This document shows positions 8,262 to 22,717 of a stretch of 32,918 nt of DNA, piece after piece (position 1 is the first letter of the stretch; every line of letters starts with the position of its first letter). Origin of the DNA: Polaribacter sp. (GTDB taxonomy: Bacteria > Bacteroidota > Bacteroidia > Flavobacteriales > Flavobacteriaceae). Location of the stretch: positions 1 to 32,918 of the forward strand of contig JANREL010000067.1 of NCBI GenBank assembly GCA_030758355.1, given 5' to 3'. Under the pieces are notes generated by a model. The model searched no databases and had not been told where the DNA came from. It saw only the letters and a program-made list of their open reading frames with translations. The translations under genes were made by a program, and so were the position numbers.

Positions 8262-8545
8262 GATTTTTTGTTTTTTAGATTAATGATGACACAAAAGTGC
8301 GACAGGAGTTACCTTTAAAAAATTGATTGTAACCCAACTGTCATTTTTTTAGGATGAATTGTCATAAAATAAAACTTATTTTTTTGATAGAAATAGTACA
8401 CTAAAAAATTACCAAAAATGTATTTATTTCAATAAATGCTAGTAAATTCATAAATCAATCCTTATTTTAGTTACGATTTCATAAAACTTTCAAAAAAATA
8501 ACTTGTTTTCAATAATAAGTTTTAAAAAATATATACTTTTACTTC

Positions 8546-8620
8546 ATGATTCAACTAATTAGAAATAAAAATTACACTCCAATAGTGCCCAGTAAGCGTT
8601 TGCGATGCAGACGCTGTTAA
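8546..8620 (+). CDS. Candidate Arg-rich leader peptide (24 aa), not in the ORF track
   Basis: ATG at 8546 to TAA at 8618-8620 encodes MIQLIRNKNYTPIVPSKRLRCRRC*. Five of 24 codons are Arg, four of them in the last seven. Upstream of the arginine operon. Confidence 0.55.
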   Translation: MIQLIRNKNYTPIVPSKRLRCRRC

Positions 8621-8630
8621 TCTTTTTCTT
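8595..8630 (+). promoter_or_regulatory. Candidate attenuator hairpin with U-rich tract overlapping the leader's Arg codons
   Basis: AGCGTTTG (8595-8602) / CAGACGCT (8608-8615), 8 bp including one G-U wobble, 5-nt loop, then TCTTTTTCTT (8621-8630). Confidence 0.45.
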
Positions 8631-8861
8631 AAAGATCAATACCACTAAAGTATAACCAATTTTTATTTTTTTTTATGAAACAATCAACCAAAGCTCCTCA
8701 ACATTTTAACGTTATTTTAGACAATAACAATGTTACAATTTCTTGTCATTTTACCACGCGCCCTTAGGGGTATGTTTGCAATTATAGAATTAGGTGAGTC
8801 CAGTTCTACTCTCAAAAAATCGACTTTAAAACATTTTTAAACTTACTAAATTTCAATTTCA

Positions 8862-9479
8862 ATGAAAATTGTCATTGCTGATAAAACTCATATTGGATAC
8901 GCTGAAATTATTTGCACAACTATAGAGGATGCTGCAAAAGTTCGAGGCACAGGAATTGCCAAGCGTAAACCAGAATATATTGCCACCAAAATGGAAAATG
9001 GCAATGCTGTTATAGCACTTGATGGTGATAAATTTGCCGGATTTTGCTATATTGAAAAATGGGGGCATGGAAAATTTGTCGCCAATTCAGGGTTGATAGT
9101 GCATCCTGACTATCGAGGTTTGGGATTATCAAAAAAAATCAAACAAGTTATTTTTGAGCACTCTAGAACCAAATTTCCTGATGCTAAAATATTTAGTATT
9201 ACTACCGGTTTGGCTGTAATGAAACTCAACACGAGTTTAGGTTACAAGCCTGTTACTTTCTCAGAATTGACAGACGATCCTACTTTTTGGGATGGTTGTC
9301 AAACATGTGTAAACTATGATGTTTTGACAAGAACAAACCGCAAAATGTGTTTGTGTACAGGTATGTTATACGACTCAAATAATCAATCCAAAGAAGCTCC
9401 AAAAAAAATCAAAGAAAAGGTTTTTTATAGACTTAAAAATATGAAACAAAACTTGTTCTTAAAAAAAGAAAAGAAATGA
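8862..9479 (+). CDS. GNAT-family N-acyltransferase, candidate first enzyme of arginine biosynthesis
   Basis: 205 aa; GLIVHPDYRGLGLSKKIK acyl-CoA-binding motif. First gene of the arg operon, with 4-nt ATGA overlap with argG. Confidence 0.85.
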   Translation: MKIVIADKTHIGYAEIICTTIEDAAKVRGTGIAKRKPEYIATKMENGNAVIALDGDKFAGFCYIEKWGHGKFVANSGLIVHPDYRGLGLSKKIKQVIFEHSRTKFPDAKIFSITTGLAVMKLNTSLGYKPVTFSELTDDPTFWDGCQTCVNYDVLTRTNRKMCLCTGMLYDSNNQSKEAPKKIKEKVFYRLKNMKQNLFLKKEKK

Positions 9480-10660
9480 AAAAACTAGTTATTGCGTATA
9501 GTGGCGGTTTAGACACCTCTTATTGTGCTGTAAAATTATCGAAAAAATACAAGGTCCATGCTGTCACTGTAAATACTGGTGGTTTTACTACTGAAGATAT
9601 CAAAAATATCGAAAATAATGCATACAAAATGGGTGTTTCAACCTATAAATGTATTGATGCTGTTGCTTCTTTTTATCAAAAAGTAGTAAAATATTTGGTG
9701 TATGGAAATGTATTGAAAAACAATACGTATCCATTATCTGTAAGTGCTGAACGAATCATTCAAGCCATTGAAATCATTGAATATGCCAAGAGTATCAATG
9801 CCGAATTTATCGCTCACGGAAGCACAGGAGCAGGAAATGATCAAGTGCGCTTTGACATGATTTTTCAAACGTTGGCACCACATATTTCGATCATCACTCC
9901 TATTAGAGACGAAAAATTGACAAGACAAGAAGAAATCGATTATTTAAAATCCGAAGGAATCAACATGCCTTGGGAAAAAGCAAAATATTCTGTAAACAAA
10001 GGTTTGTGGGGAACAAGTGTTGGTGGAGAAGAAACTCTTACATCCACAATGCCTTTACCTGAAAGTGCCTATCCATCTCAATTGGAAAAAGAAGGGTATC
10101 AAAAAGTAGTACTGACCTTTAATAAAGGGAATTTAGTTGCTGTAAATGGCAAAATTGATGACCCTGAAAAATGTATTGAATTACTCAATAGTTTTGCAAC
10201 AAAATATGCCATTGGTAGAGATATTCATGTGGGTGATACCATTGTTGGTATCAAAGGAAGAGTTGGTTTTGAGGCTGCAGCTGCTTTGATTACTATAAAA
10301 GCACATCATTTGTTAGAAAAACATACACTCACAAAATGGCAACTGCAGCACAAAGAATATTTGGCAAGTTTTTATGGAATGCATTTGCACGAAGGTCAAT
10401 ATTTGGATCCTGTAATGAGAAATATCGAAGCTTTTTTAGAAAGTAGCCAAAAAAATGTTTCTGGAAGTGTCTTTGTTACCTTGAGACCTTATCATTATTC
10501 ATTGGATGGCGTTTCTTCGCCACATGATTTAATGAATGCCAAATTCGGAAGTTATGGGGAGGAAAATAAAGTTTGGACAGCTGATGATGCAAAAGGGTTC
10601 ATTAAAATTTTGGGAAATCAAAACAAAATATATCAGCAAGTAAATAACGACGAATTATGA
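9476..10660 (+). CDS. argG: Argininosuccinate synthase
   Basis: 394 aa; AYSGGLDTSYCAVKL PP-loop, HGSTGAGNDQVRFD. Confidence 0.96.
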   Translation: MKKLVIAYSGGLDTSYCAVKLSKKYKVHAVTVNTGGFTTEDIKNIENNAYKMGVSTYKCIDAVASFYQKVVKYLVYGNVLKNNTYPLSVSAERIIQAIEIIEYAKSINAEFIAHGSTGAGNDQVRFDMIFQTLAPHISIITPIRDEKLTRQEEIDYLKSEGINMPWEKAKYSVNKGLWGTSVGGEETLTSTMPLPESAYPSQLEKEGYQKVVLTFNKGNLVAVNGKIDDPEKCIELLNSFATKYAIGRDIHVGDTIVGIKGRVGFEAAAALITIKAHHLLEKHTLTKWQLQHKEYLASFYGMHLHEGQYLDPVMRNIEAFLESSQKNVSGSVFVTLRPYHYSLDGVSSPHDLMNAKFGSYGEENKVWTADDAKGFIKILGNQNKIYQQVNNDEL

Positions 10661-11634
10661 TTCAAGTAGGAATTATTGGTGGTGCAGGATATACAGCTGG
10701 CGAATTGATCAGGCTGATATTGCATCATCCAAAAGCAGAAATCAACTTTGTGTATAGCACTTCTAATGCAGGAAATAAAATATATGACGTACATCAAGAT
10801 TTGTATGGAGACACTGAGTTGAAGTTTATCGATAGTATCAATTCTGAGGTTGATATCTTATTTTTATGTTTAGGTCACGGAAATTCAACGCAATTTTTAA
10901 AGGAAAATAGCTTTTCTAAAAACACTAAAATTATTGATTTAAGCAATGATTTTAGATTAGAATCTTCCAATATTATTGGTGGTAAAGCATTTGTGTACGG
11001 TTTGCCTGAATTGCAAAAAGAAGAAATAACAAAAGCAAATTATATTGCGAATCCAGGATGCTTTGCAACTGCTTTGCAACTGGCGATTTTACCTTTAGCA
11101 TCACACAAATTGTTGTTTGATGACATTCATATTCACGCTGTAACTGGCGCAACTGGCGCAGGAACTGCTGTTTCAGCAACTTCGCATTTTCCTTGGAGAG
11201 ACAATAATTTTTCGCATTACAAAGCTTTTTCTCACCAACATTTAGATGAAATCAATCAAACTGTACAAAACTTACAACCTGAATTTTCGTCAGAAATTAA
11301 TTTTATTCCCAATAGAGGAAATTTCTCAAGAGGAATTTTTGCAACCATTTATACAAAGTTTACAGGAAGCATGGATGAAGCAAAAGAAATGTATCAATCC
11401 TACTATGAAGAGGCCGCTTTTACATTTATTTCTGACAATGAATTGCATTTAAAACAAGTAGTGAATACCAATAAATGTTTATTGCATTTATCAAAAAAAA
11501 ATGATAAATTACTGATTACAAGCGTTATAGATAATTTATTAAAAGGCGCTTCTGGCCAAGCAATTCAAAACATGAACTTGATGTTTGGTTTTCATGAAAC
11601 TTTAGGACTACATAGTAAAGCCAATTATTTTTAA
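10657..11634 (+). CDS. argC: N-acyl-gamma-glutamyl-phosphate reductase
   Basis: 325 aa; GIIGGAGYTAGELIRLI, ANPGCFATALQLA, HAVTGATGAGTAVS. Confidence 0.96.
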   Translation: MIQVGIIGGAGYTAGELIRLILHHPKAEINFVYSTSNAGNKIYDVHQDLYGDTELKFIDSINSEVDILFLCLGHGNSTQFLKENSFSKNTKIIDLSNDFRLESSNIIGGKAFVYGLPELQKEEITKANYIANPGCFATALQLAILPLASHKLLFDDIHIHAVTGATGAGTAVSATSHFPWRDNNFSHYKAFSHQHLDEINQTVQNLQPEFSSEINFIPNRGNFSRGIFATIYTKFTGSMDEAKEMYQSYYEEAAFTFISDNELHLKQVVNTNKCLLHLSKKNDKLLITSVIDNLLKGASGQAIQNMNLMFGFHETLGLHSKANYF

Positions 11635-11645
11635 AAAAAACACCC

Positions 11646-12446
11646 ATGAAAATTGCAATCATAGGCACTGGAAATTTAGGGAAATCAATCGCAAAAGGAT
11701 TGATTATCAATAATGCCATCACTTCTTTATATCTTACCAAAAGAAATTTAGATTCAATCTCAGAATTTGAAGGATACAAGAATGTTTTTTTGACAACGAA
11801 TAATACAGAGGCAATTCAACAGTCTGATATTCTTATTTTTGCTGTGCAACCTGCTCATTTTGATAAAATTCTAAAAGAAATAAAACCATTTCTAACTAGT
11901 AAACATGTTCTTATTTCAACAATTACAGGATTCAGTATCCGAAGAGTTGAAGAAATTATTGGAAATGAAACATTTATCATTCGAGCGATGCCAAATACTG
12001 CCATTGCTGTTGGTAAATCCATGACTTGTTTGTGTAGTAACGAAATAGGAAAACAGCGAATTAAAATTGCCGAAGCTATTTTCAATAGATTAGGGCATTC
12101 TATGACAATTCCTGAAGCTCAAATGCAAGCTGCAACAGTGGTATGTGCGAGCGGAATTGCTTTTTGGATGCGACTGATTAGGGCAACCACACAAGCAGCT
12201 ATTCAGCTAGGTTTTGATGCCAAAGAAGCACAAGAATTAGCCATGTTTACCTGTGATGGTGCTGCCAATTTATTAATTTCAAATGGCAATCACCCAGAAG
12301 AAGAAATTGACAAAGTAACTACTCCAAAAGGGTGTACTATAGAAGGTTTGAATGAAATGGAACACAAAGGATTGAGCTCGTCTTTGATTCATGGAATGGT
12401 CGCTTCGTTCAATAAAATTAACATTATAAAAAAAGAACAACTATGA
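11646..12446 (+). CDS. proC: Pyrroline-5-carboxylate reductase
   Basis: 266 aa; Rossmann IIGTGNLGKSIAKGL, RAMPNTAIAVGKSMTCL, TPKGCTIEGL. Confidence 0.94.
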   Translation: MKIAIIGTGNLGKSIAKGLIINNAITSLYLTKRNLDSISEFEGYKNVFLTTNNTEAIQQSDILIFAVQPAHFDKILKEIKPFLTSKHVLISTITGFSIRRVEEIIGNETFIIRAMPNTAIAVGKSMTCLCSNEIGKQRIKIAEAIFNRLGHSMTIPEAQMQAATVVCASGIAFWMRLIRATTQAAIQLGFDAKEAQELAMFTCDGAANLLISNGNHPEEEIDKVTTPKGCTIEGLNEMEHKGLSSSLIHGMVASFNKINIIKKEQL

Positions 12447-13570
12447 GTTTGTTTAATGTATATCCTCTGTTTGATATCACTCCTGTAAAGGCAACAGATG
12501 TTTATGTCTATGATGACAAAGGAGTTGAATATTTAGATTTATATGGTGGTCATGCTGTGATTTCTATTGGGCATTCACATCCAAAATATGTAGAAGCCAT
12601 TAGTAATCAGGTTGCGAATTTGGGTTTTTATAGCAACTCTATTCAAAATCCTTTGCAACAAGCCCTCTCAGAAAAATTAGGACAACTTTCTTGTTGTATT
12701 GATTACGATTTATTTATGTGTAATTCTGGTGCTGAAGCCAATGAAAATGCCCTAAAATTAGCCTCATTTCATACCAATAAGAAAAAAATTATTGCCTTTA
12801 AAAACAGTTTTCATGGACGAACTTCAGCAGCTGTTGTGGCGACTGATGATGCTAAAATTATTGCGCCATTGAATGCACAACAAGAAGTTGAAATTTTGCC
12901 TTTGGGTGATTTAGTTGCATTAGAAAATGCATTGCAAAAAAACGATGTGTGTGCTGTAATTGTTGAATGTATCCAAGGAGTTGGAGGTTTAGACGAGAGT
13001 ACCACTGAATTTTATGAGGGAATTGACTCACTTTGTAAAAAGTACGGTGCGTGTTTTATTGCTGATGAAGTACAATCTGGTTATGGAAGAACAGGCAATT
13101 TTTTCGCTTATCAAAAATACAAGGTAACGCCTGATATTATTTCCATAGCAAAAGGAATGGGAAATGGATTTCCGGTTGGAGGCATTTTAATTCATCAATC
13201 CATCAAAGCTTCTTTTGGATTATTGGGAACTACTTTTGGCGGAAATCATTTGGCTTGTGCTGCGGCATTAACAGTTTTAAATGTGATTGAAGAGGAAAAA
13301 TTGATGGAAAATGCAAAAAATATGTCGCAATATTTCATCGAAAAAGCGCAAGAAATTGCACAAGTAAAAAGAATCAAAGGACGTGGATTGATGTTGGGAT
13401 TAGAATTTGATTTTCCAATCGCTGAACTTCGAAAAAAATTAATCAATACACATCATATTTTTACTGGGAATGCTAAAAATCAATATGTTATACGGATTTT
13501 ACCACCTTTAACCATCCAAAAAAATCATATTGATATTTTTATGAATGCCCTAAAAAGTGAATTATCATGA
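12443..13570 (+). CDS. argD: N-acylornithine aminotransferase
   Basis: 375 aa; class-III aminotransferase NSGAEANENALKLA, FIADEVQSGYGRTG, SIAKGMGNGFPVGG. Confidence 0.95.
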   Translation: MSLFNVYPLFDITPVKATDVYVYDDKGVEYLDLYGGHAVISIGHSHPKYVEAISNQVANLGFYSNSIQNPLQQALSEKLGQLSCCIDYDLFMCNSGAEANENALKLASFHTNKKKIIAFKNSFHGRTSAAVVATDDAKIIAPLNAQQEVEILPLGDLVALENALQKNDVCAVIVECIQGVGGLDESTTEFYEGIDSLCKKYGACFIADEVQSGYGRTGNFFAYQKYKVTPDIISIAKGMGNGFPVGGILIHQSIKASFGLLGTTFGGNHLACAAALTVLNVIEEEKLMENAKNMSQYFIEKAQEIAQVKRIKGRGLMLGLEFDFPIAELRKKLINTHHIFTGNAKNQYVIRILPPLTIQKNHIDIFMNALKSELS

Positions 13571-14520
13571 AAAACTATATCTCTATTCAAGACATTACTG
13601 ATATCTATTCTTGGATTAAAGAAGCCAAAAAAATTAAGGAAAACCCTCTAAAAAATAAAAAATTAGGCAAGAACAAAACTTTGGGTTTGTTGTTTTTCAA
13701 TCCGAGTTTACGGACACGTTTGAGTACACAAAAAGCAGCCTTAAATTTAGGAATGAATACGATTGTTATGAACGTTTCTGAGGATGCTTGGGGCATTGAA
13801 TTCGAAAATGGAACCATCATGAATGGCACAACTGCTGAACATATAAAAGAAGCTGCTGCTGTGGTTTCTCAATATTGTGATGTGATTGCTGTAAGAGCTT
13901 TTCCAACGTTAAAAGACAAAGAAAAAGATGAACGTGAACAGGTTTTAAATGCCTTTATAAAATACGCTTCTGTACCAATTGTGAATATGGAAAGTGCTAC
14001 AAGTCATCCTTTACAAGGTTTGACTGATGCAATTACTATTGCCGAAAATTCGAGCAAAAAAAGACCAAAAGTGGTTTTATCTTGGGCTCCACATGTTAAA
14101 GCGTTGCCTCATGCAGTTGCGAACAGTTTTGTAGAAGCCATGCAAAAAATGGACGTAGAATTTGTAATTACCAATCCTGAAGGATATAATTTAAATTCTG
14201 AAATCACGAAAAATATTCCGATAATTCACGATCAAAAAGTAGCTCTTGAAAATGCCGATTTTGTATATGCAAAAAATTGGAGTTCATATGATTCTTATGG
14301 ACAAATTTTAAAAACAGATTTAGATTGGATGGTAACCGAAAATAACATTGGAGAGGCTAAATTCATGCATTGTTTGCCAGTTCGCAGAAATGTAGTTGTT
14401 GAAGATGCGGTCTTAGATTCTGAAAATTCTTTGGTGATTCAACAAGCTAATAATAGAACATTTGCAGCGCAATTGGTGTTAAAGAAAATATTAGAAATGC
14501 AAATACAGCAGGGGCTTTAA
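13567..14520 (+). CDS. argF': N-acyl (acetyl/succinyl)-L-ornithine carbamoyltransferase
   Basis: 317 aa; FFNPSLRTRLS, NMESATSHPLQGLTD, and HCLPVRRN typical of AOTCase/SOTCase rather than ordinary OTCase. Confidence 0.93.
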   Translation: MKNYISIQDITDIYSWIKEAKKIKENPLKNKKLGKNKTLGLLFFNPSLRTRLSTQKAALNLGMNTIVMNVSEDAWGIEFENGTIMNGTTAEHIKEAAAVVSQYCDVIAVRAFPTLKDKEKDEREQVLNAFIKYASVPIVNMESATSHPLQGLTDAITIAENSSKKRPKVVLSWAPHVKALPHAVANSFVEAMQKMDVEFVITNPEGYNLNSEITKNIPIIHDQKVALENADFVYAKNWSSYDSYGQILKTDLDWMVTENNIGEAKFMHCLPVRRNVVVEDAVLDSENSLVIQQANNRTFAAQLVLKKILEMQIQQGL

Positions 14521-14544
14521 ACCCATTGTCAAAAAAGAGGAAAA

Positions 14545-15321
14545 ATGGAAAAACTATCAATCATCAAAATCGGTGGAAATATCATTGAAGATGAATCTTC
14601 TTTGCACGAATTTTTGAAACTTTTTTCAAACCTCACTGGAAAGAAAATTTTGGTTCATGGTGGAGGAAAAAAAGCCACACAAATGGCTGCGAAATTAGGA
14701 ATAGCATCCACAATGGTGAATGGTAGAAGAATTACTGATGCCGCTACTTTAAAGGTCATTACCATGGTGTATGGTGGTTTAGTAAACAAAAATATAATAG
14801 CTAAACTGCAATCATTGGGTATAAATGCAATCGGTTTGTCTGGAGCAGATGGAAATACTATTTTGTCTTCAAAAAGACCTGTAAAAGAGATTGATTATGG
14901 TTTTGTAGGTGATGTAAAAAATGTTGATAACCAAGCTATTGAGGTGTTGATAAATCATGATTTTACGCCTGTATTTTGCGCTATTACACATGATGGGAAT
15001 GGACAATTATTAAACACAAATGCAGATACTATTACCAGTCAAATAGCGGTTTCAATGAGTAAAAATTACGAAACAAGTATTTATTATTGCTTTGAATTGA
15101 ATGGAGTACTCGAGGATATAAATGATAAAAATTCAGTCATCAAACACATCAATTCCAAAAGTTATTCAACATTATTATCAGATGGAATTATTGCAGATGG
15201 CATGTTGCCAAAGCTCGAAAATTGTTTCAATGCCCTAAAAAATGGTGTTCGTGCTGTTTTTATGGGGAATACCACTATCTTGACAAAAGAAAACGAAAAT
15301 TACACTAAAATAATGCTATAA
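14545..15321 (+). CDS. argB: N-acylglutamate kinase
   Basis: 258 aa; IIKIGGNIIED, LVHGGGKKATQMAAKLG, TNADTITSQIA, DGIIADGMLPKLENC. Confidence 0.95.
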   Translation: MEKLSIIKIGGNIIEDESSLHEFLKLFSNLTGKKILVHGGGKKATQMAAKLGIASTMVNGRRITDAATLKVITMVYGGLVNKNIIAKLQSLGINAIGLSGADGNTILSSKRPVKEIDYGFVGDVKNVDNQAIEVLINHDFTPVFCAITHDGNGQLLNTNADTITSQIAVSMSKNYETSIYYCFELNGVLEDINDKNSVIKHINSKSYSTLLSDGIIADGMLPKLENCFNALKNGVRAVFMGNTTILTKENENYTKIML

Positions 15322-16389
15322 ATGGAACTCAACAAACTTACAATCGAAGCTATTGCGCTTTTAAAAAAGTTGATTGAAACTCCGTCTTTTTCATCCGAAG
15401 AAGACAAAACTGCTCTTTTGATTGAAAATTGGTTTAAAGATCATCAAATTCCGTTTCAAAGAGACAGAAATAATATATGGGCTGTGAATAAATATTTTGA
15501 TAAGAGCAAACCAACTTTATTGCTAAACTCCCATCATGATACTGTAAAACCAAACTCTGCCTACACCAAAAATCCATTTGAAGCGATTGTTGAAAACGGA
15601 AAATTGTATGGTTTGGGGAGCAATGATGCGGGAGGTTGTTTGGTTTCCTTGATGGCAACTTTCACATATTTTTTTCATCAAGAAAATCTAAAATACAATC
15701 TTGTCATGGTGGCTTCTGCAGAAGAAGAAAGTAGTGGAGAATTTGGATTGAACAGCATGTTATCCATCATTCCAAAAATTGATGTTGCCATTGTTGGCGA
15801 ACCAACATTGATGAATTTGGCCATTGCTGAAAAAGGTCTGGTGGTTTTTGATGCAGTCGTAGAGGGCATTGCAAGTCATGCTGCACACCCAAATAATGAC
15901 AATCCGATTTACAAAATGATTGATGTGTTGCGATGGTTTCGTGATTTTACTTTCGATAAAACTTCGGAAACTTTGGGCGATGTGAAAATGACCGTTACCC
16001 AAATCAATGCAGGAAAACAGCACAATGTGGTTCCTGCACATGTAGATTTGGTAATTGATGTTCGCGTAAATGATTCTTATTCTAATCAAGAAATTGCGCA
16101 AATTTTACAAGAAAATGCACCATGTTCTAAAATAATTCCAAGAAGTTTGCGACTCAACTCCTCCTCCATTTCTAGCGAACACGAATTGGTAAAAGCTGGA
16201 ATTTCGATTGGTAGAAAAACTTATGGTTCACCAACATTATCAGATCAATCTGTGTTGAGTTGCCAATCATTGAAGTTAGGCCCAGGAGACAGCACCCGTT
16301 CACATTCTGCTGATGAATTTATTTACATTGCTGAAATTGAAGAGGGAATTGCTATTTATGTGGAATTATTGAATCGTGTAATTATATAA
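15322..16389 (+). CDS. argE: M20 deacylase of the ArgE/DapE family (likely N-acylcitrulline deacylase)
   Basis: 355 aa; LLNSHHDTVKP, GSNDAGG, ASAEEESSGEFG, VGEPT. Confidence 0.92.
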   Translation: MELNKLTIEAIALLKKLIETPSFSSEEDKTALLIENWFKDHQIPFQRDRNNIWAVNKYFDKSKPTLLLNSHHDTVKPNSAYTKNPFEAIVENGKLYGLGSNDAGGCLVSLMATFTYFFHQENLKYNLVMVASAEEESSGEFGLNSMLSIIPKIDVAIVGEPTLMNLAIAEKGLVVFDAVVEGIASHAAHPNNDNPIYKMIDVLRWFRDFTFDKTSETLGDVKMTVTQINAGKQHNVVPAHVDLVIDVRVNDSYSNQEIAQILQENAPCSKIIPRSLRLNSSSISSEHELVKAGISIGRKTYGSPTLSDQSVLSCQSLKLGPGDSTRSHSADEFIYIAEIEEGIAIYVELLNRVII

Positions 16390-16396
16390 GCAAATA

Positions 16397-16470
16397 TCTC
16401 CTCGAGCGCAGTCGAGAGGTTTTTTTTAAAAGTAGTACATTAATTTAGGTCTCGACTGCGCTCGAGCAGA
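16397..16470. repeat. Long inverted repeat between argE and argH (intergenic hairpin element)
   Basis: CTCGAGCGCAGTCGAGA (16401-16417) / TCTCGACTGCGCTCGAG (16450-16466), perfect 17 bp, extended by 3 bp (TCT 16397-16399 / AGA 16468-16470) after one mismatch; 32-nt loop. T8 run (16420-16427) follows the left arm. Confidence 0.9.
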
Positions 16471-16485
16471 CAAACCAAGAAAAAA

Positions 16486-17763
16486 ATGAAACTTTGGGAT
16501 AAAGGATTTTCAATCGATAAAAAAATAGAACTTTTTACAGTTGGTAATGACCGTGAAATTGATATACACATTGCAAAATACGATGTAATTGCTTCGTTAG
16601 CTCATGCTAAAATGCTACATTCTATTAAACTGATTACCGAAAACGAATTGAAAGAGTTGGAAATTGGTTTGCAAAATATTGCCAAAGATATTGAAAATGG
16701 AACCTTTATCATTGAAGATTCCTTTGAAGATGTACACTCTAAAATTGAGTGGGAATTGACTCAAAAATTTGGGGAAGTTGGTAAAAAAATTCACACTGCA
16801 CGTTCTAGAAACGACCAAGTTTTAGTGGCTTTACAATTGTATTATAAAGAAAACTTGAATGAAGTAAATCAAAAAGTAAAAGTTCTTTTTGACACTTTAT
16901 TGCAACTAGCAGAAACTCACAAAAATCAATTTTTACCTGGTTATACACATTTACAAGTTGCCATGCCATCTTCTTTTGGACTGTGGTTTTCAGCCTATGC
17001 AGAATTGCTAATTGATGACGTTTATTTACTACATGCCGTTTCAAAAATTGTAGATCAAAATCCCCTGGGATCTGCTGCTGGATATGGAAGTTCGTTTCCT
17101 ATTGACAGAGAATTTACCACCAAAGAAATGAATTTCAGTACGTTAAAATTTAATGTGGTTGCAGCACAGATGAGTAGAGGAAAAAGCGAGCGTTCCATTG
17201 CTGCTGCTTTGGGTGGTTTATCCAATACTTTAGCACGTTTTTCTATGGATATTTGTTTGTATATGAGTCAGAATTTTGGTTTTATTTCTTTTCCTGACGA
17301 ATTGACTACTGGTAGTAGCATTATGCCACATAAAAAAAATCCTGATGTGTTTGAATTGATTCGTGGAAAATGCAATAAAATTCAGGCATTACAAACAGAA
17401 ATGATTCTTATTACCAATAATTTACCTTCTGGTTATCACAGAGATTTTCAGTTATTGAAAGAAAACATGATCAATGCTTTTGAAGATGTAAAAAATATCT
17501 TAGACATTTTCAACTTTGCCATTCAACAAATTATTGTGAAAGAAATTGATTTGAATGATGAGAAATACCACTATTTATTTACCGTTGATAGCATCAATAA
17601 TTTAGTTACTGAAGGGATGAGTTTTAGAGAAGCCTATCAAAAAATTGGTGGAGAAGTACAATCAGGTATTTACAAAGCTACTTTAGGTAAAAAACATACC
17701 CATATTGGAAGTATTCACAATTTAGGATTGGAAAAAATTCGAAAAAAGTTTCCCAGAGATTAA
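16486..17763 (+). CDS. argH: Argininosuccinate lyase
   Basis: 425 aa; HSKIEWELTQ, HTARSRNDQV, GYTHLQVAMPSSFG, TGSSIMPHKKNPDVFELIRGK. Confidence 0.96.
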   Translation: MKLWDKGFSIDKKIELFTVGNDREIDIHIAKYDVIASLAHAKMLHSIKLITENELKELEIGLQNIAKDIENGTFIIEDSFEDVHSKIEWELTQKFGEVGKKIHTARSRNDQVLVALQLYYKENLNEVNQKVKVLFDTLLQLAETHKNQFLPGYTHLQVAMPSSFGLWFSAYAELLIDDVYLLHAVSKIVDQNPLGSAAGYGSSFPIDREFTTKEMNFSTLKFNVVAAQMSRGKSERSIAAALGGLSNTLARFSMDICLYMSQNFGFISFPDELTTGSSIMPHKKNPDVFELIRGKCNKIQALQTEMILITNNLPSGYHRDFQLLKENMINAFEDVKNILDIFNFAIQQIIVKEIDLNDEKYHYLFTVDSINNLVTEGMSFREAYQKIGGEVQSGIYKATLGKKHTHIGSIHNLGLEKIRKKFPRD

Positions 17764-18899
17764 AAAATCCGCTTAAAAATTGCACGTATAAAATTGGCAG
17801 GCGGCATTTTCAACATGATGGATAAATCTTCTGTAAAAGACGTTTCTTCATCTAAAAATTTTAAAATCTTTTCTACGGAAGTTCTTTTGAATAAATGTCC
17901 AAATAATGAAGATCCTAAATGATTTTTCTCATGTAAAATATCCAATAATAACAGGTCATAAAACCAAAATTTATTGATTTTATAAAACGATGGTAAGGGT
18001 TTGTTTTCTTTTAAATGGTCAATTAATTGGGAAGTTTTTTTGGTCGTGTTTTTGAAGGTAAATCCTGTACTTGGTTTAGACCATCCTCCAGCAGTACCAA
18101 TATGAATGATATTATTAGAATTATTTTTCCAAAAATGATAACAAGTCATGGGTATTGACCCTTGTTCTTTTTCGGTAATGGTGAAGTTGGTGATGTTATT
18201 TTCTTTCAGATAAGTTTCGATTTCAGCTTCATATTCAGAAATGGGTAACAACTTTTCTGAAAACAAGGTATATTCAAAAAGTGCTTCATTTTTACTGAAA
18301 GGCAAAATATACATAAATCGTGTATTTCCCTTTTGTGGAATTTTAAAATCCATAAAGGTAGCCAAATCGTCATTAAAGGAATCTTCAGTTGTTTTTATAA
18401 AAAAACCGACAAAATGCTGCTGTAAAACTGGGTATTTTGTTTGAAGCTTGTATTTGTTTGAAAAAAGAATAGAGTTAAGAACAACTGTTGATGAAAATGA
18501 ACCCGCATCCGTAATAACAATTGCTGAACTTTCAGCCTGCTGAATTTCTAAAACGTTGGAAGCTATAAAGGTAATCTGTGGATTTTGATCTAACTGATTC
18601 CAAATTTTGTCGTAGATTTTTTTACTACGTATCATTTTATATTGATACGGTAAAATGGATTCTTCAAGCGAATGTATATCAGACTTGAATTGAATTTTAT
18701 CCCAAGTTTTGGCTAAAACATCATCCCATTCACCATTGTTCTTTTCCCAAAAACACCAAGTTCGGTCGTTGATTGACTTTTTCTCTTTGTCAATAATCAG
18801 GATTTTTTTTGTCTCAAAAAAAGAATCTTTTGACATCCTGTAGGCCATCATTAATCCTGAAGCTCCTGCACCAACTATGATATAATCGTAATTTTTCAT
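17760..18899 (-). CDS. crtY: Lycopene beta-cyclase
   Basis: 379 aa; DYIIVGAGASGLMMAYRM, NDRTWCFWEKNN, IHIGTAGGWSKPSTGFTFKNT. Confidence 0.93.
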   Translation of the reverse strand: MKNYDYIIVGAGASGLMMAYRMSKDSFFETKKILIIDKEKKSINDRTWCFWEKNNGEWDDVLAKTWDKIQFKSDIHSLEESILPYQYKMIRSKKIYDKIWNQLDQNPQITFIASNVLEIQQAESSAIVITDAGSFSSTVVLNSILFSNKYKLQTKYPVLQQHFVGFFIKTTEDSFNDDLATFMDFKIPQKGNTRFMYILPFSKNEALFEYTLFSEKLLPISEYEAEIETYLKENNITNFTITEKEQGSIPMTCYHFWKNNSNNIIHIGTAGGWSKPSTGFTFKNTTKKTSQLIDHLKENKPLPSFYKINKFWFYDLLLLDILHEKNHLGSSLFGHLFKRTSVEKILKFLDEETSFTEDLSIMLKMPPANFIRAIFKRIF

Positions 18900-18976
18900 C
18901 TTGTCAGTTGTGTATTACGATTCATAAATTATGATTTGATAGCATCTGTAAAAACAGGTAATTCTAAAAAAGTATT

Positions 18977-19423
18977 TTATAGGAATTCTCTAAAATATTT
19001 TAACGGAACAAACAACATCCCAAAACATTGACTTTCTTCTTTTCCCATATTTTTGTGATGTACTTTGTGACCTTTTCTCAGGGCTTTTAAATACCAACTA
19101 TTGGTGTTTTTAAACCACTTAAATCGTTGATGAATCAAGACATCATGGATTAAAAAATACGCCAATCCATATAATAAAATTCCTAAACCTATAAAAATTA
19201 AAAAAGTATAAGGAGTATTAGAGCCAAAAATAAACAACAACATGCTCGGAAATGCAAAAATCACAAAAAACAAGTCATTCTTTTCAAATACATTAGGATA
19301 CCCTGGTTGGTGATGGTCTTCGTGTAAAAACCATCCAAAACCGTGCATTACATATTTGTGCGTACACCAAGTAATGCCTTCCATCGTTATAAAAACCCCG
19401 AAGGTAATCAGTGCGTACAACAT
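18977..19423 (-). CDS. crtZ: Beta-carotene hydroxylase
   Basis: 148 aa; histidine motifs HKYVMH, HEDHH, HDVLIHQR, HKVHHK of the CrtZ/fatty acid hydroxylase superfamily. Confidence 0.94.
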   Translation of the reverse strand: MLYALITFGVFITMEGITWCTHKYVMHGFGWFLHEDHHQPGYPNVFEKNDLFFVIFAFPSMLLFIFGSNTPYTFLIFIGLGILLYGLAYFLIHDVLIHQRFKWFKNTNSWYLKALRKGHKVHHKNMGKEESQCFGMLFVPLKYFREFL

Positions 19424-20265
19424 TAGATAATATTTAATTTGTATTTTACGTAACTTCTTGCTAAAAGGTTAATTTTCATTGGATTAGAAATTCGAATTCT
19501 CGTATCCATGATTTTTTCTGAAGGTAAGTTTTTTAGTTTCTTCAACAATCGTCTGTAATATCTGTATGCCATATACACCCCAAATTTTGCTTCTACAGGC
19601 AATTTTAAGATGCCGTTTGTATACGCATAGTCAAAATCATCTTCTATCTCATCAATAATAAGTTGTTTTGAGGCCGCATCTAATTTTCCAAAATCGATAT
19701 TCGGGAAATACGAGCGATTCAACAACTCAAAATCGTCTTTTAAATCGCGCAAAAAGTTTACTTTTTGAAAAGCAGATCCTAAACGCATGGCAGCATCTCT
19801 TAACTCAACATACAGTTTTTCATCTCCGTTTACAAATACTTTCAAGCACATCAAACCTACTACATCTGCAGAACCAAAAATATATTCGTCATACTCTTCT
19901 TTGGTGTTGTATGTTGTTTTGTACAAATCAGCTTTCATGCTTTTTAGAAAAGCCTGCACCATTTCATCTGGAATATTATACTTATGAACCGTTTGTTGAA
20001 AAGAGTGCAAAATGGGGTTCAAACTTATTTTCTGTTCTTTGGCAAAATAATAGTCTTGTTCAAAATGACGCATCAACTGCTCTTTATCATAGTCATGAAA
20101 AGTATCTACGATTTCGTCGGCAAATCGCACAAAACCATAAATATTATAAATATCAGCTCTGATTTTTGGAGACAACATGTTTACAGCCATAGAAAAAGAA
20201 GTACTATATTTTTTAGTAACCATTTCGCTGCATCCATTTGAAACATCATCAAACAATTCTTTCAT
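19423..20265 (-). CDS. crtB: Phytoene synthase
   Basis: 280 aa; YGFVRFADEIVDTF, YIFGSADVVGLMCLKVF, LGSAFQKVNFLRDLKDD. Overlaps the crtZ start by 1 nt (TAATG). Confidence 0.95.
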   Translation of the reverse strand: MKELFDDVSNGCSEMVTKKYSTSFSMAVNMLSPKIRADIYNIYGFVRFADEIVDTFHDYDKEQLMRHFEQDYYFAKEQKISLNPILHSFQQTVHKYNIPDEMVQAFLKSMKADLYKTTYNTKEEYDEYIFGSADVVGLMCLKVFVNGDEKLYVELRDAAMRLGSAFQKVNFLRDLKDDFELLNRSYFPNIDFGKLDAASKQLIIDEIEDDFDYAYTNGILKLPVEAKFGVYMAYRYYRRLLKKLKNLPSEKIMDTRIRISNPMKINLLARSYVKYKLNII

Positions 20266-20268
20266 ACA

Positions 20269-21738
20269 CTAATTTTGTTGATTTTTTACTATTAAATCCG
20301 AAGCAATTTTTCCAGAAATTAACGCCGGAGGAACTCCAGGTCCTGGAACGGTTAATTGCCCTGTAAAATATAAATTATTCACTTTTTTACTTTTTATTTT
20401 TGGCCTTAAAAATGCTGTTTGAAACAACGTATTTGCCAATCCGTATGCGTTTCCTTTGTAAGAGTTGTATTCTTCTACAAAATCATTTACGCAAAAAGAT
20501 TTTTTAAATATAATATTTTTTTGCACATCTTGGTTGGTTAATTTCTCTAAACGAGTAATTATTTTCTTAAAATACAATTCTCGTAATTCGTCTGTATCTT
20601 CCAAACCTGGTGCTAAAGGTATTAAAAATGTTGCAGCCTCGCAATCATCAGGAGCAAAAGAATCGTCAGTAATGCTTGAAAAGCTTGCATAAAACAATGG
20701 ATTATCAGGCCATTTTGGGGTGTCATAAATGTCTTTTGCATGCACATCAAAATCGCTGTCAAAAAATAAGGTGTGATGAGAAACGTTGGCTAATTTTTTA
20801 TCAAAAGCTACATAAAAAAGCAATGACGAAGGTGCAAAAGTCTTTTTAGACCAGTAATTTTCTGAATATTGACGTACATTTTCATTCAATAAAGTCTCTG
20901 TGTGATGATAATCTGCGCCACTCAATACCAAATCTGCTTCAATATCTTCACCATTTACCACCAAACCAATTACATTATTAGAAGCATCTGTTTTTATTTT
21001 ATCAACATTGGCATTGGTTCTAAATTCTACACCCAAACTCTCTGCCAACGCAACCATGCCTTCAACTACTTTATACATTCCTCCAATTGGATGCCAAGTT
21101 CCAAGTCCAAAATCAGCATAATTCATGAAATTGTAAAACGCAGGGGTGTTGCTTGGCTTAGCTCCTAAAAACAATACTGGAAACTCTAAAATCTGAATGA
21201 GTTTATTACTTTTAATGTTTTTACGCACCTCTTTTCTGATCGTAGACACAAATTGATTGAGCTTTGTCACTGTTTTTGGGGTTACCAACTCTAAAGGTGA
21301 AATACCAGGTTTGTAAACCAAATCTTTTATAGCAATGTTGTAATTAGATTGAGCAGAATCCATGAATTTTTTTAATTGTGTGGCACTGCCTTTTTCCTCT
21401 TGTTCAAAAGTTTGGTAAATCTCTTCTAAATTTCCATCAATAGTAATAGAGTCTTGTTCTCCAAAATACACCTGATATGCTGGTTTTAGTTTTTCTAAAA
21501 GGTAAAAATCGGAAGGTTTTTTACCAAAATCAGCAAAAAAGCGCTCGAAAACATCGGGCATCCAATACCAAGTCGGACCGATATCAAAAGTAAAACCGTC
21601 TTTTTTATACTGCCTTGCTCTTCCTCCTAAAGTCGTATTTTTTTCTAAAACGATTACTTCAAATCCTTCTTTAGATAGATAACATGATGCCGCTAAAGCA
21701 GAAAACCCTGAACCAATAATATATATTTTTTTTTTCAT
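20269..21738 (-). CDS. crtI: Phytoene desaturase
   Basis: 489 aa; IYIIGSGFSALAASCYLSKEGFEVIVLEKN, FDIGPTWYWMPDVFE, YFTGQLTVPGPGVPPALISGKIA. Confidence 0.96.
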   Translation of the reverse strand: MKKKIYIIGSGFSALAASCYLSKEGFEVIVLEKNTTLGGRARQYKKDGFTFDIGPTWYWMPDVFERFFADFGKKPSDFYLLEKLKPAYQVYFGEQDSITIDGNLEEIYQTFEQEEKGSATQLKKFMDSAQSNYNIAIKDLVYKPGISPLELVTPKTVTKLNQFVSTIRKEVRKNIKSNKLIQILEFPVLFLGAKPSNTPAFYNFMNYADFGLGTWHPIGGMYKVVEGMVALAESLGVEFRTNANVDKIKTDASNNVIGLVVNGEDIEADLVLSGADYHHTETLLNENVRQYSENYWSKKTFAPSSLLFYVAFDKKLANVSHHTLFFDSDFDVHAKDIYDTPKWPDNPLFYASFSSITDDSFAPDDCEAATFLIPLAPGLEDTDELRELYFKKIITRLEKLTNQDVQKNIIFKKSFCVNDFVEEYNSYKGNAYGLANTLFQTAFLRPKIKSKKVNNLYFTGQLTVPGPGVPPALISGKIASDLIVKNQQN

Positions 21739-21799: not shown

Positions 21800-22717
21800 T
21801 TATAAGACTTTTAACAAATCACTTATCGATTCATATAAATGAATTTGTTTTCCTAAAGGAAGGTGCTTAATTTTTTGAACTTTGTGACCAATAGCAATGA
21901 ATTTGTGATTGGTTTCTAACATTAAGTCGTTAATTTCATTGAAATAATCTTCTATTTTATCGTTATACGGTTGAATCGTTAACGAGGTAATGAAACAAAC
22001 TTCTTTGTCGTTTTCTAAAAAGTAATTTAAATTATTTAAGGGCAAACTTTGTCCTAAATAAATGGTGTGAAACCCTCTTAACACCAACTCATAATTCAAA
22101 TACAACAAGCCTAATTCGTGTATTTCGTTTTCTGGCAAAAACAAAACATAGGTTTTGTTGGTGTTGGTAATATTGTATTGTAATTTCTCGGTATTGGAAA
22201 GAATTTTTTGAGAAATTAAATTAGACATAAAATGCTCATGTGCAGGCAATAAAGTATCAGTATGCCACAACATTCCTATTTGTTCTAAAAAGGGAATGAA
22301 TACGTTTTTAAAAATTTCTCTGAATGTTTTTTTTTGTAATAAGGTATTATATGTGTTGTTAAACAACACCTTATCAAATTGATACATAGAGAGTTTCAAT
22401 GAATTTATTGCCTCATCACTCACAGCATTGCTAAACGCTAATTCTCTAGATTTTAACAAAATTTCATCATCAGTCATAGCAGCGATTTTCGAAATTTTGA
22501 AATCATTATTATTTAACAAAACAATATTTAAGAGTTTTGTTAGGTTTTCTGGCGAGTAGTATCTAATATTAGTATCTGTTCTATTAGGTTTCAACAGATT
22601 GTACCTTTTTTCCCATATACGTATCGTGTGCGCTTTGATTCCTGAAATATTTTCTAAATCTTTGATCGTGAAATCTTGCTTAATACTGTTCAATTTATTT
22701 TGTTTTAAAGTAAACAA
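21800..22717 (-). CDS. MerR-family regulator with CarH/LitR-like cobalamin-binding domain
   Basis: Up to 305 aa from a TTG start; MerR HTH (FTIKDLENISGIKAHTIRIWEKRYNLLKPNRT), B12-cap WHTDTLLPAHEH and ENEIHELG motifs. The true start may be TTG at 22693 (see findings). Confidence 0.88.
   Translation of the reverse strand: MFTLKQNKLNSIKQDFTIKDLENISGIKAHTIRIWEKRYNLLKPNRTDTNIRYYSPENLTKLLNIVLLNNNDFKISKIAAMTDDEILLKSRELAFSNAVSDEAINSLKLSMYQFDKVLFNNTYNTLLQKKTFREIFKNVFIPFLEQIGMLWHTDTLLPAHEHFMSNLISQKILSNTEKLQYNITNTNKTYVLFLPENEIHELGLLYLNYELVLRGFHTIYLGQSLPLNNLNYFLENDKEVCFITSLTIQPYNDKIEDYFNEINDLMLETNHKFIAIGHKVQKIKHLPLGKQIHLYESISDLLKVL

Follow-up and report, generated by a model that had tools for sequence, protein, structure and literature searches.

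Arginine operons are usually described as being under the control of ArgR or of T-boxes. T-boxes are also described in PMC1262725. The window analyzed here, a stretch of 32,918 nucleotides from Polaribacter sp. (contig JANREL010000067.1 of assembly GCA_030758355.1), raises the question of how an arginine operon is controlled in this lineage. In this window, a leader of 316 nt precedes nine genes on the forward strand (8862-17763): GNAT, argG, argC, proC, argD, argF' (N-acetylornithine carbamoyltransferase), argB, argE, and argH. The assignments were made from the list of open reading frames and with NCBIfam. Matches above the cut-offs were obtained for argC, proC, argB, argH, and the N-acetylornithine carbamoyltransferase, and clear matches under the cut-off for argG, argD, and argE; GNAT, the first gene of the operon, had no NCBIfam match. 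The matches to arg genes bear out the nine-gene arginine operon that an earlier note on this DNA had placed downstream of the leader. On the minus strand, at 17760-21738, we named by eye a carotenoid-like gene cluster (lycopene cyclase, hydroxylase, phytoene synthase, and desaturase), which is adjoined by a MerR-type regulator at 21800-22717, also named by eye.

A comparison of the leader to about 100 loci, drawn from many genera, brought out a pair of short ORFs rather than a single one. In our view, the leader is likely to be a tandem arginine-sensing control region that works in two steps, one formed by a first leader ORF and a terminator (uORF1-T1), the other by a second leader ORF and two hairpins (uORF2-P1-P2). 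Conservation strongly supports the view that the arg operon is under arginine leader control. The earlier note had proposed arginine leader-peptide attenuation; the Arg leader ORF on which it built is supported by conservation, but the main terminator is probably a different one, and the second, non-classical leader had been overlooked. The leader had no match in Rfam, the T-box model included, either at the gathering threshold or at E values of up to 5.

The first leader ORF, uORF1, is located at 8546-8620 on the forward strand. Its translation, MIQLIRNKNYTPIVPSKRLRCRRC followed by a stop codon, agrees with the ORF reported before, including the C-terminal Arg codons CGT (8597), CGA (8603), AGA (8609), and CGC (8612). 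Conservation of its position had been named as a check, and indeed an Arg-rich ORF was found at the same place in 126 of 215 related loci. It is usually 20-25 codons long with an Arg-rich end, as exemplified by MKNLKNKIRCTTPGLPARNRRRCF-like peptides in the Algibacter group. Arg accounts for 22% of the uORF1 codons, compared to 3.2% in the genes of the window; this enrichment arises partly by selection, as the ORFs were chosen for Arg, and position and promoter spacing agree with it. The Arg codons used by uORF1 at the 126 loci are CGC (53%), CGT (24%), and AGA (12%), while the window genes use AGA (47%), CGT (24%), and CGC (9%). Selective charging (PMC1183508) is a possible reason for the bias of uORF1 towards CGC and CGT.

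Four nucleotides before the ATG of uORF1, a match to the motif TAnnTTW was detected (TACTTTTA, 8534-8541, forward strand). The same motif ends 4-5 nt upstream of the uORF1 start in 112 of the 126 loci. It resembles the -7 box of Bacteroidota and is a putative promoter element. Among the loci that lack uORF1, a strict TAnnTTTG is found 6-8 nt before an in-frame start of uORF2 in 33 of 89.

Two hairpins had been described around the end of uORF1, and both were found on the forward strand. The first, AGCGTTTG-CGATG-CAGACGCT (8595-8615), lies over the Arg codons and was recovered from the sequence, a terminator scan, and the fold; the second (8620-8636, ATCTTT at 8620-8625 and AAAGAT at 8631-8636) lies 3' of the uORF1 stop codon and was recovered from sequence and fold. 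Apart from the hairpin at 8595-8615, no terminator-like site was found in 8262-8900, where shuffled sequences give 0.0 (sd 0.2). As for its conservation, the exact hairpin is common to the closest relatives L002, L031, and L032, and L033, which completes the four closest, has it with one inner mismatch (7 of 8 pairs), but other Polaribacter form different hairpins over the same Arg codons. The hairpin named in the earlier note, with the U-tract at 8621-8630, is probably not the main terminator: the best U-tract, ATTTTTATTTTTTTTT, was identified from sequence and relatives at 8659-8674, behind a long-range stem. A fold of 8571-8675 showed that the 5' arm of this outer stem of T1 (TAGTG, 8583-8587) lies immediately before the Arg codons and the 3' arm (CACTA) at 8643-8647. 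Both hairpins noted earlier are inner hairpins enclosed by it.

The stem of T1 is weak in the window and stronger in relatives. A U-tract after uORF1 (at least 8 T of 12) was present in 124 of the 126 uORF1 loci, and the segment before it pairs with the segment before the Arg codons, with a mean of 9.3 long-range pairs compared to 4.4 after shuffling. For this pairing, p was about 1e-12 over 86 peptide groups, a value that overstates independence, as the loci are related and the groups not independent; moreover, the fold-based test was added after a weak duplex-energy result and is to be weighed accordingly. The duplex energy was -9.3 kcal/mol for native arms, -7.6 kcal/mol for arms swapped between species, and -7.4 kcal/mol for shuffled arms, and only 16% of the loci beat 95% of the arm swaps, a weaker signal than that of the fold test. 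T1 is clearest in L008, L012, and L021. Because the outer stem of the window has only 5 bp and a longer fold from 8546 favours another pairing, the case for T1 is made mainly by the relatives.

As in a ribosome-mediated transcription attenuator, the leader ORF uORF1 is enriched in codons for the end product, and an intrinsic terminator, consisting of a U-tract and a stem above shuffles (weak in the window), lies between it and the structural genes. The first step is best read as ribosome-mediated transcription attenuation. Transcription would start at uORF1 or slightly upstream of it. With an ample supply of charged tRNA-Arg, the ribosome would complete uORF1 and leave, and T1 with its U-tract would end transcription ahead of uORF2. 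Under a shortage of Arg-tRNA, the ribosome would instead stall on the Arg codons of uORF1, and we infer that a ribosome halted at the first of these codons would mask the 5' arm of T1, allowing RNA polymerase to read through.

This arrangement is similar to the leader attenuators of his, trp, thr, and ilv operons in that an ORF rich in end-product codons is followed by a terminator before the structural genes. It differs from them in that the amino acid is arginine, two leader ORFs are arranged in tandem, and a second module without a terminator is present. In addition, no separate antiterminator was found for uORF1-T1, the 5' arm of T1 being located just before the Arg codons, and the T1 loop itself encloses the sensing codons. 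In Polaribacter and relatives (L315-L326), a His-rich leader peptide, for example MNFIQIHHHFHICPQAK, was seen upstream of hisG. A strong terminator hairpin with a T-run lies behind this peptide, and there is no P1-P2 module; judged by its sequence, the hisG leader is a textbook attenuator. Because of the His-rich leader and the strong terminator, leader-peptide attenuation can be considered at home in the genus. For Flavobacterium psychrophilum, which belongs to the same family, the transcriptome study describes structured 5' regions with clues of leader-peptide attenuation before amino-acid operons, and its main text does not name arg (PMC9723704). No arginine leader-peptide attenuator in Bacteroidota was found in the open-access literature searched.

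Directly 3' of the U-tract of T1, at 8675, a second leader ORF begins. This ORF, uORF2 (8675-8767, forward strand, MKQSTKAPQHFNVILDNNNVTISCHFTTRP and a stop codon), had been overlooked together with the hairpins P1 (8759-8772) and P2 (8787-8806), and the three are conserved more widely than the feature originally reported. At every one of the 215 loci, the uORF2 frame stays open over 20 codons or more; the other frames do so at 43 and 49 loci. Arg makes up 27.7% of its last ten codons before a final Arg-Pro, compared to 2.3% and 3.8% in the other frames. The open frame and the Arg codons indicate that uORF2 is truly coding. CGC serves as the last Arg codon at each of the 215 loci, in part by construction, as the loci were anchored on CGCC. 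Relatives have 3-6 Arg codons near the end of uORF2, while the window keeps just the final Arg-Pro; the window and the four relatives closest to it have lost most of the uORF2 Arg codons (TISCHFTTRP and similar). With a single Arg codon, the last, remaining in the uORF2 of this subclade, sensing there probably falls mainly to uORF1. Within uORF2, a hairpin termed P0 (GTTATT..AATAAC, 8711-8728, forward strand) was found in just part of the family.

The end of uORF2 brings to mind an arrest peptide, the Arg-rich, Pro-terminated end of which would sense arginine in the ribosome and block termination at high arginine, so that the stalled ribosome would turn the operon down via P1-P2. We consider this unlikely. 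Arg-Pro ends uORF2 in 211 of 215 loci and is directly followed by the stop codon in 176, and this end is at a fixed distance from P2, all of which agrees with arrest, but in 39 loci, mostly Polaribacter, no stop follows the Pro directly, and the peptide is variable apart from its Arg residues and Arg-Pro. The fungal arginine attenuator peptide arrests the ribosome with Arg. For TnaC, arrest of the peptide with Trp blocks termination (PMC8429421). In both, a short uORF controls genes related to amino acids, and TnaC shares with uORF2 a Pro directly before the stop codon; uORF2 differs from them in being poorly conserved beyond Arg and Arg-Pro.

P1 (CGCCC..GGGG, forward strand), which was recognized by comparison of loci, holds the Arg-Pro-stop codons of uORF2. 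At the 215 loci, CGCCC pairs with GGG, and the loop is mostly GUAA or UUU/UUA. P2 (GAATT-AGGTGAGTCC-AGTTC, forward strand) was recognized by covariation and comparison of loci; the P1-P2 distance is 33-35 nt in 188 of 215 loci, and the sequence of the linker is variable. The loop of P2 (8792-8801) reads AGGUGHGUCC (H = A/U/C) in 212 of 215 loci, which were chosen by pattern for most of the loop, and an independent covariance search supports it. In an unselected set, the stem has at least 5 contiguous pairs in 93 of 97 loci, and its inner pairs covary. The arm-swap test gave 100%, partly by selection, as these loci were chosen for at least 5 bp. For RNAalifold, the loci were aligned in one loop-length register, as a one-base loop insertion was otherwise misplaced. 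In principle, the reported feature could have arisen from a short ORF and a hairpin that overlap by chance, and the fold of the complete leader is indeed only a modest improvement on shuffles (z -1.8), but both uORFs and P2 are conserved across the family; the comparative data contradict chance, which we regard as extremely improbable.

In two loci (L312 and L313), the inner GG/CC of P2 is replaced by GA/UC while the hairpin is kept, a swap that would fit a short inner helix closing a UGHGU pentaloop. Two other pairings were considered by eye: a pairing of the P2 loop with P1 (CGCC/GGUG) was dropped, as GA/UC abolishes it, and a pairing with the anti-Shine-Dalgarno end of 16S rRNA was dropped as incompatible with the same swap. 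P2 was also rejected as an intrinsic terminator: no U-tract follows it, with a mean of 3.6 T in the best 8-nt window. The module uORF2-P1-P2 lacks the intrinsic terminator of a ribosome-mediated transcription attenuator and is not a classical attenuator, because it has no U-tract. Mutual information, calculated for pairs in or just after uORF2-P1-P2, revealed only P2 and no long-range pairing, antiterminator, or switch partner.

P2 combines a covarying stem with conserved unpaired bases, as a riboswitch does. P1-P2 might be a small arginine riboswitch that overlaps the coding region and binds its ligand directly, which would agree with nine of ten loop positions being nearly invariant and with its constant location at the arg operon. 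We consider this very unlikely, as the conserved Arg codons of uORF2 point to translation as the sensor, P2 is small with no other covarying helix around, and diverged lineages have other loops. Being a short hairpin with an invariant loop, P2 might instead be the binding site of a regulatory protein, with the uORFs merely modulating, an idea that has also been proposed for the LEU element (PMC1262725); this would leave the conserved Arg codons unexplained and appears quite improbable to us. The LEU element, located upstream of leuA in Actinobacteria, is the closest described analogue that we found for uORF2-P1-P2 (PMC1262725). Here as there, a leader ORF with end-product codons overlaps a conserved RNA structure without a classical terminator. 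The LEU element, however, is a pseudoknot that pairs with the Shine-Dalgarno box and has no conserved unpaired bases (PMC1262725), whereas the arg leader has a hairpin whose loop is almost invariant. In or just after uORF2-P1-P2, no covarying LEU-like long-range pair was found.

The second module of the tandem control region exists, and we infer its mode of action as follows. The progress of the ribosome through the Arg codons of uORF2 and Arg-Pro-stop would set whether P1 can form. The state of P1 would then be relayed to the expression of GNAT-argG by P2, which lies at a constant distance from it. Because there is no U-tract after P2, we propose that the output could be Rho-dependent termination, polymerase pausing, or translation. 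Tentatively, and with more doubt than confidence, uORF2-P1-P2 might represent a new class of ribosome-coupled RNA switch, in which a short leader ORF ending in Arg-Pro and, at fixed distance, a hairpin whose loop is almost invariant would jointly detect arginine or Arg-tRNA. It would do so with no intrinsic terminator, and arginine-dependent ribosome arrest might be involved, which would make it the bacterial equivalent of the fungal arginine attenuator peptide. Points against the tandem reading are the weak T1 in the window, the lack of a terminator or switch partner in the second element, and the Arg-poor uORF2 of the subclade.

Genomes were searched with a covariance model of P1-P2, as the exact pattern was too strict (6 of 39 genomes). 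Of 301 Flavobacteriaceae genomes, 179 had uORF2-P1-P2 by this model, and of 237 genera, 147. Among the genomes listed, there is one copy per genome, except in G356; G441 has a weak second match. In 58 of 58 loci checked, the element is directly upstream of GNAT-argG, or of argG where no GNAT matched (L148). When 17 family genomes without the element, outside genus g148, were searched for the GNAT gene, 15 were without it, and in the other two the operon was present with diverged leaders. Genus g148, taken to be Flavobacterium judging by its size and the named relatives it lacks, has the operon and no match to the P1-P2 model, and in several of its members the leader contains other short ORFs that include Arg codons. 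Among the sampled genomes, those without the element are thus mostly without the operon too, g148 being the exception, and the two leader peptides with their hairpins are retained by most operon-bearing genera of the family. In a sample of the phylum, one weak match (E 0.002) was obtained outside the family; elsewhere in the order, Arg-rich uORFs accompanied by different hairpins occur at some loci of other families. From this distribution, uORF2-P1-P2 appears to be the older module, with uORF1-T1 seemingly either added later or frequently lost.

Several further observations were made among these loci. By eye, hairpins with different stems and a U-N-C-G-U loop (UCCGU/UACGU) were seen at the place of P2 in L286, L309, L310, L311, and L297; these loops, downstream of Arg-rich uORFs, look similar to the UGHGU of the main family, and L297 also shows a P1-like hairpin, AGGCC-GUAA-GGUCU, over Arg-Pro-stop. 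The arg operons of L284, L290, L291, and L293 have no evident leader ORF and carry repeated AGATATTATATCT-like palindromes near the promoter, upstream of GNAT, possibly a repressor site replacing the leader. An open frame of ~590 aa holds the GNAT match in G642, G650, G657, and further genomes of family f16 (about 0.6 Mb); GNAT may be fused there to an adjacent arg gene.

In uORF2-P1-P2, much of this large family has a conserved RNA-peptide element at its arg operon that is almost always present as a single copy and is absent from Rfam. Its almost invariant loop and fixed geometry lead to testable predictions of how the translation of a leader peptide may control genes without a terminator.
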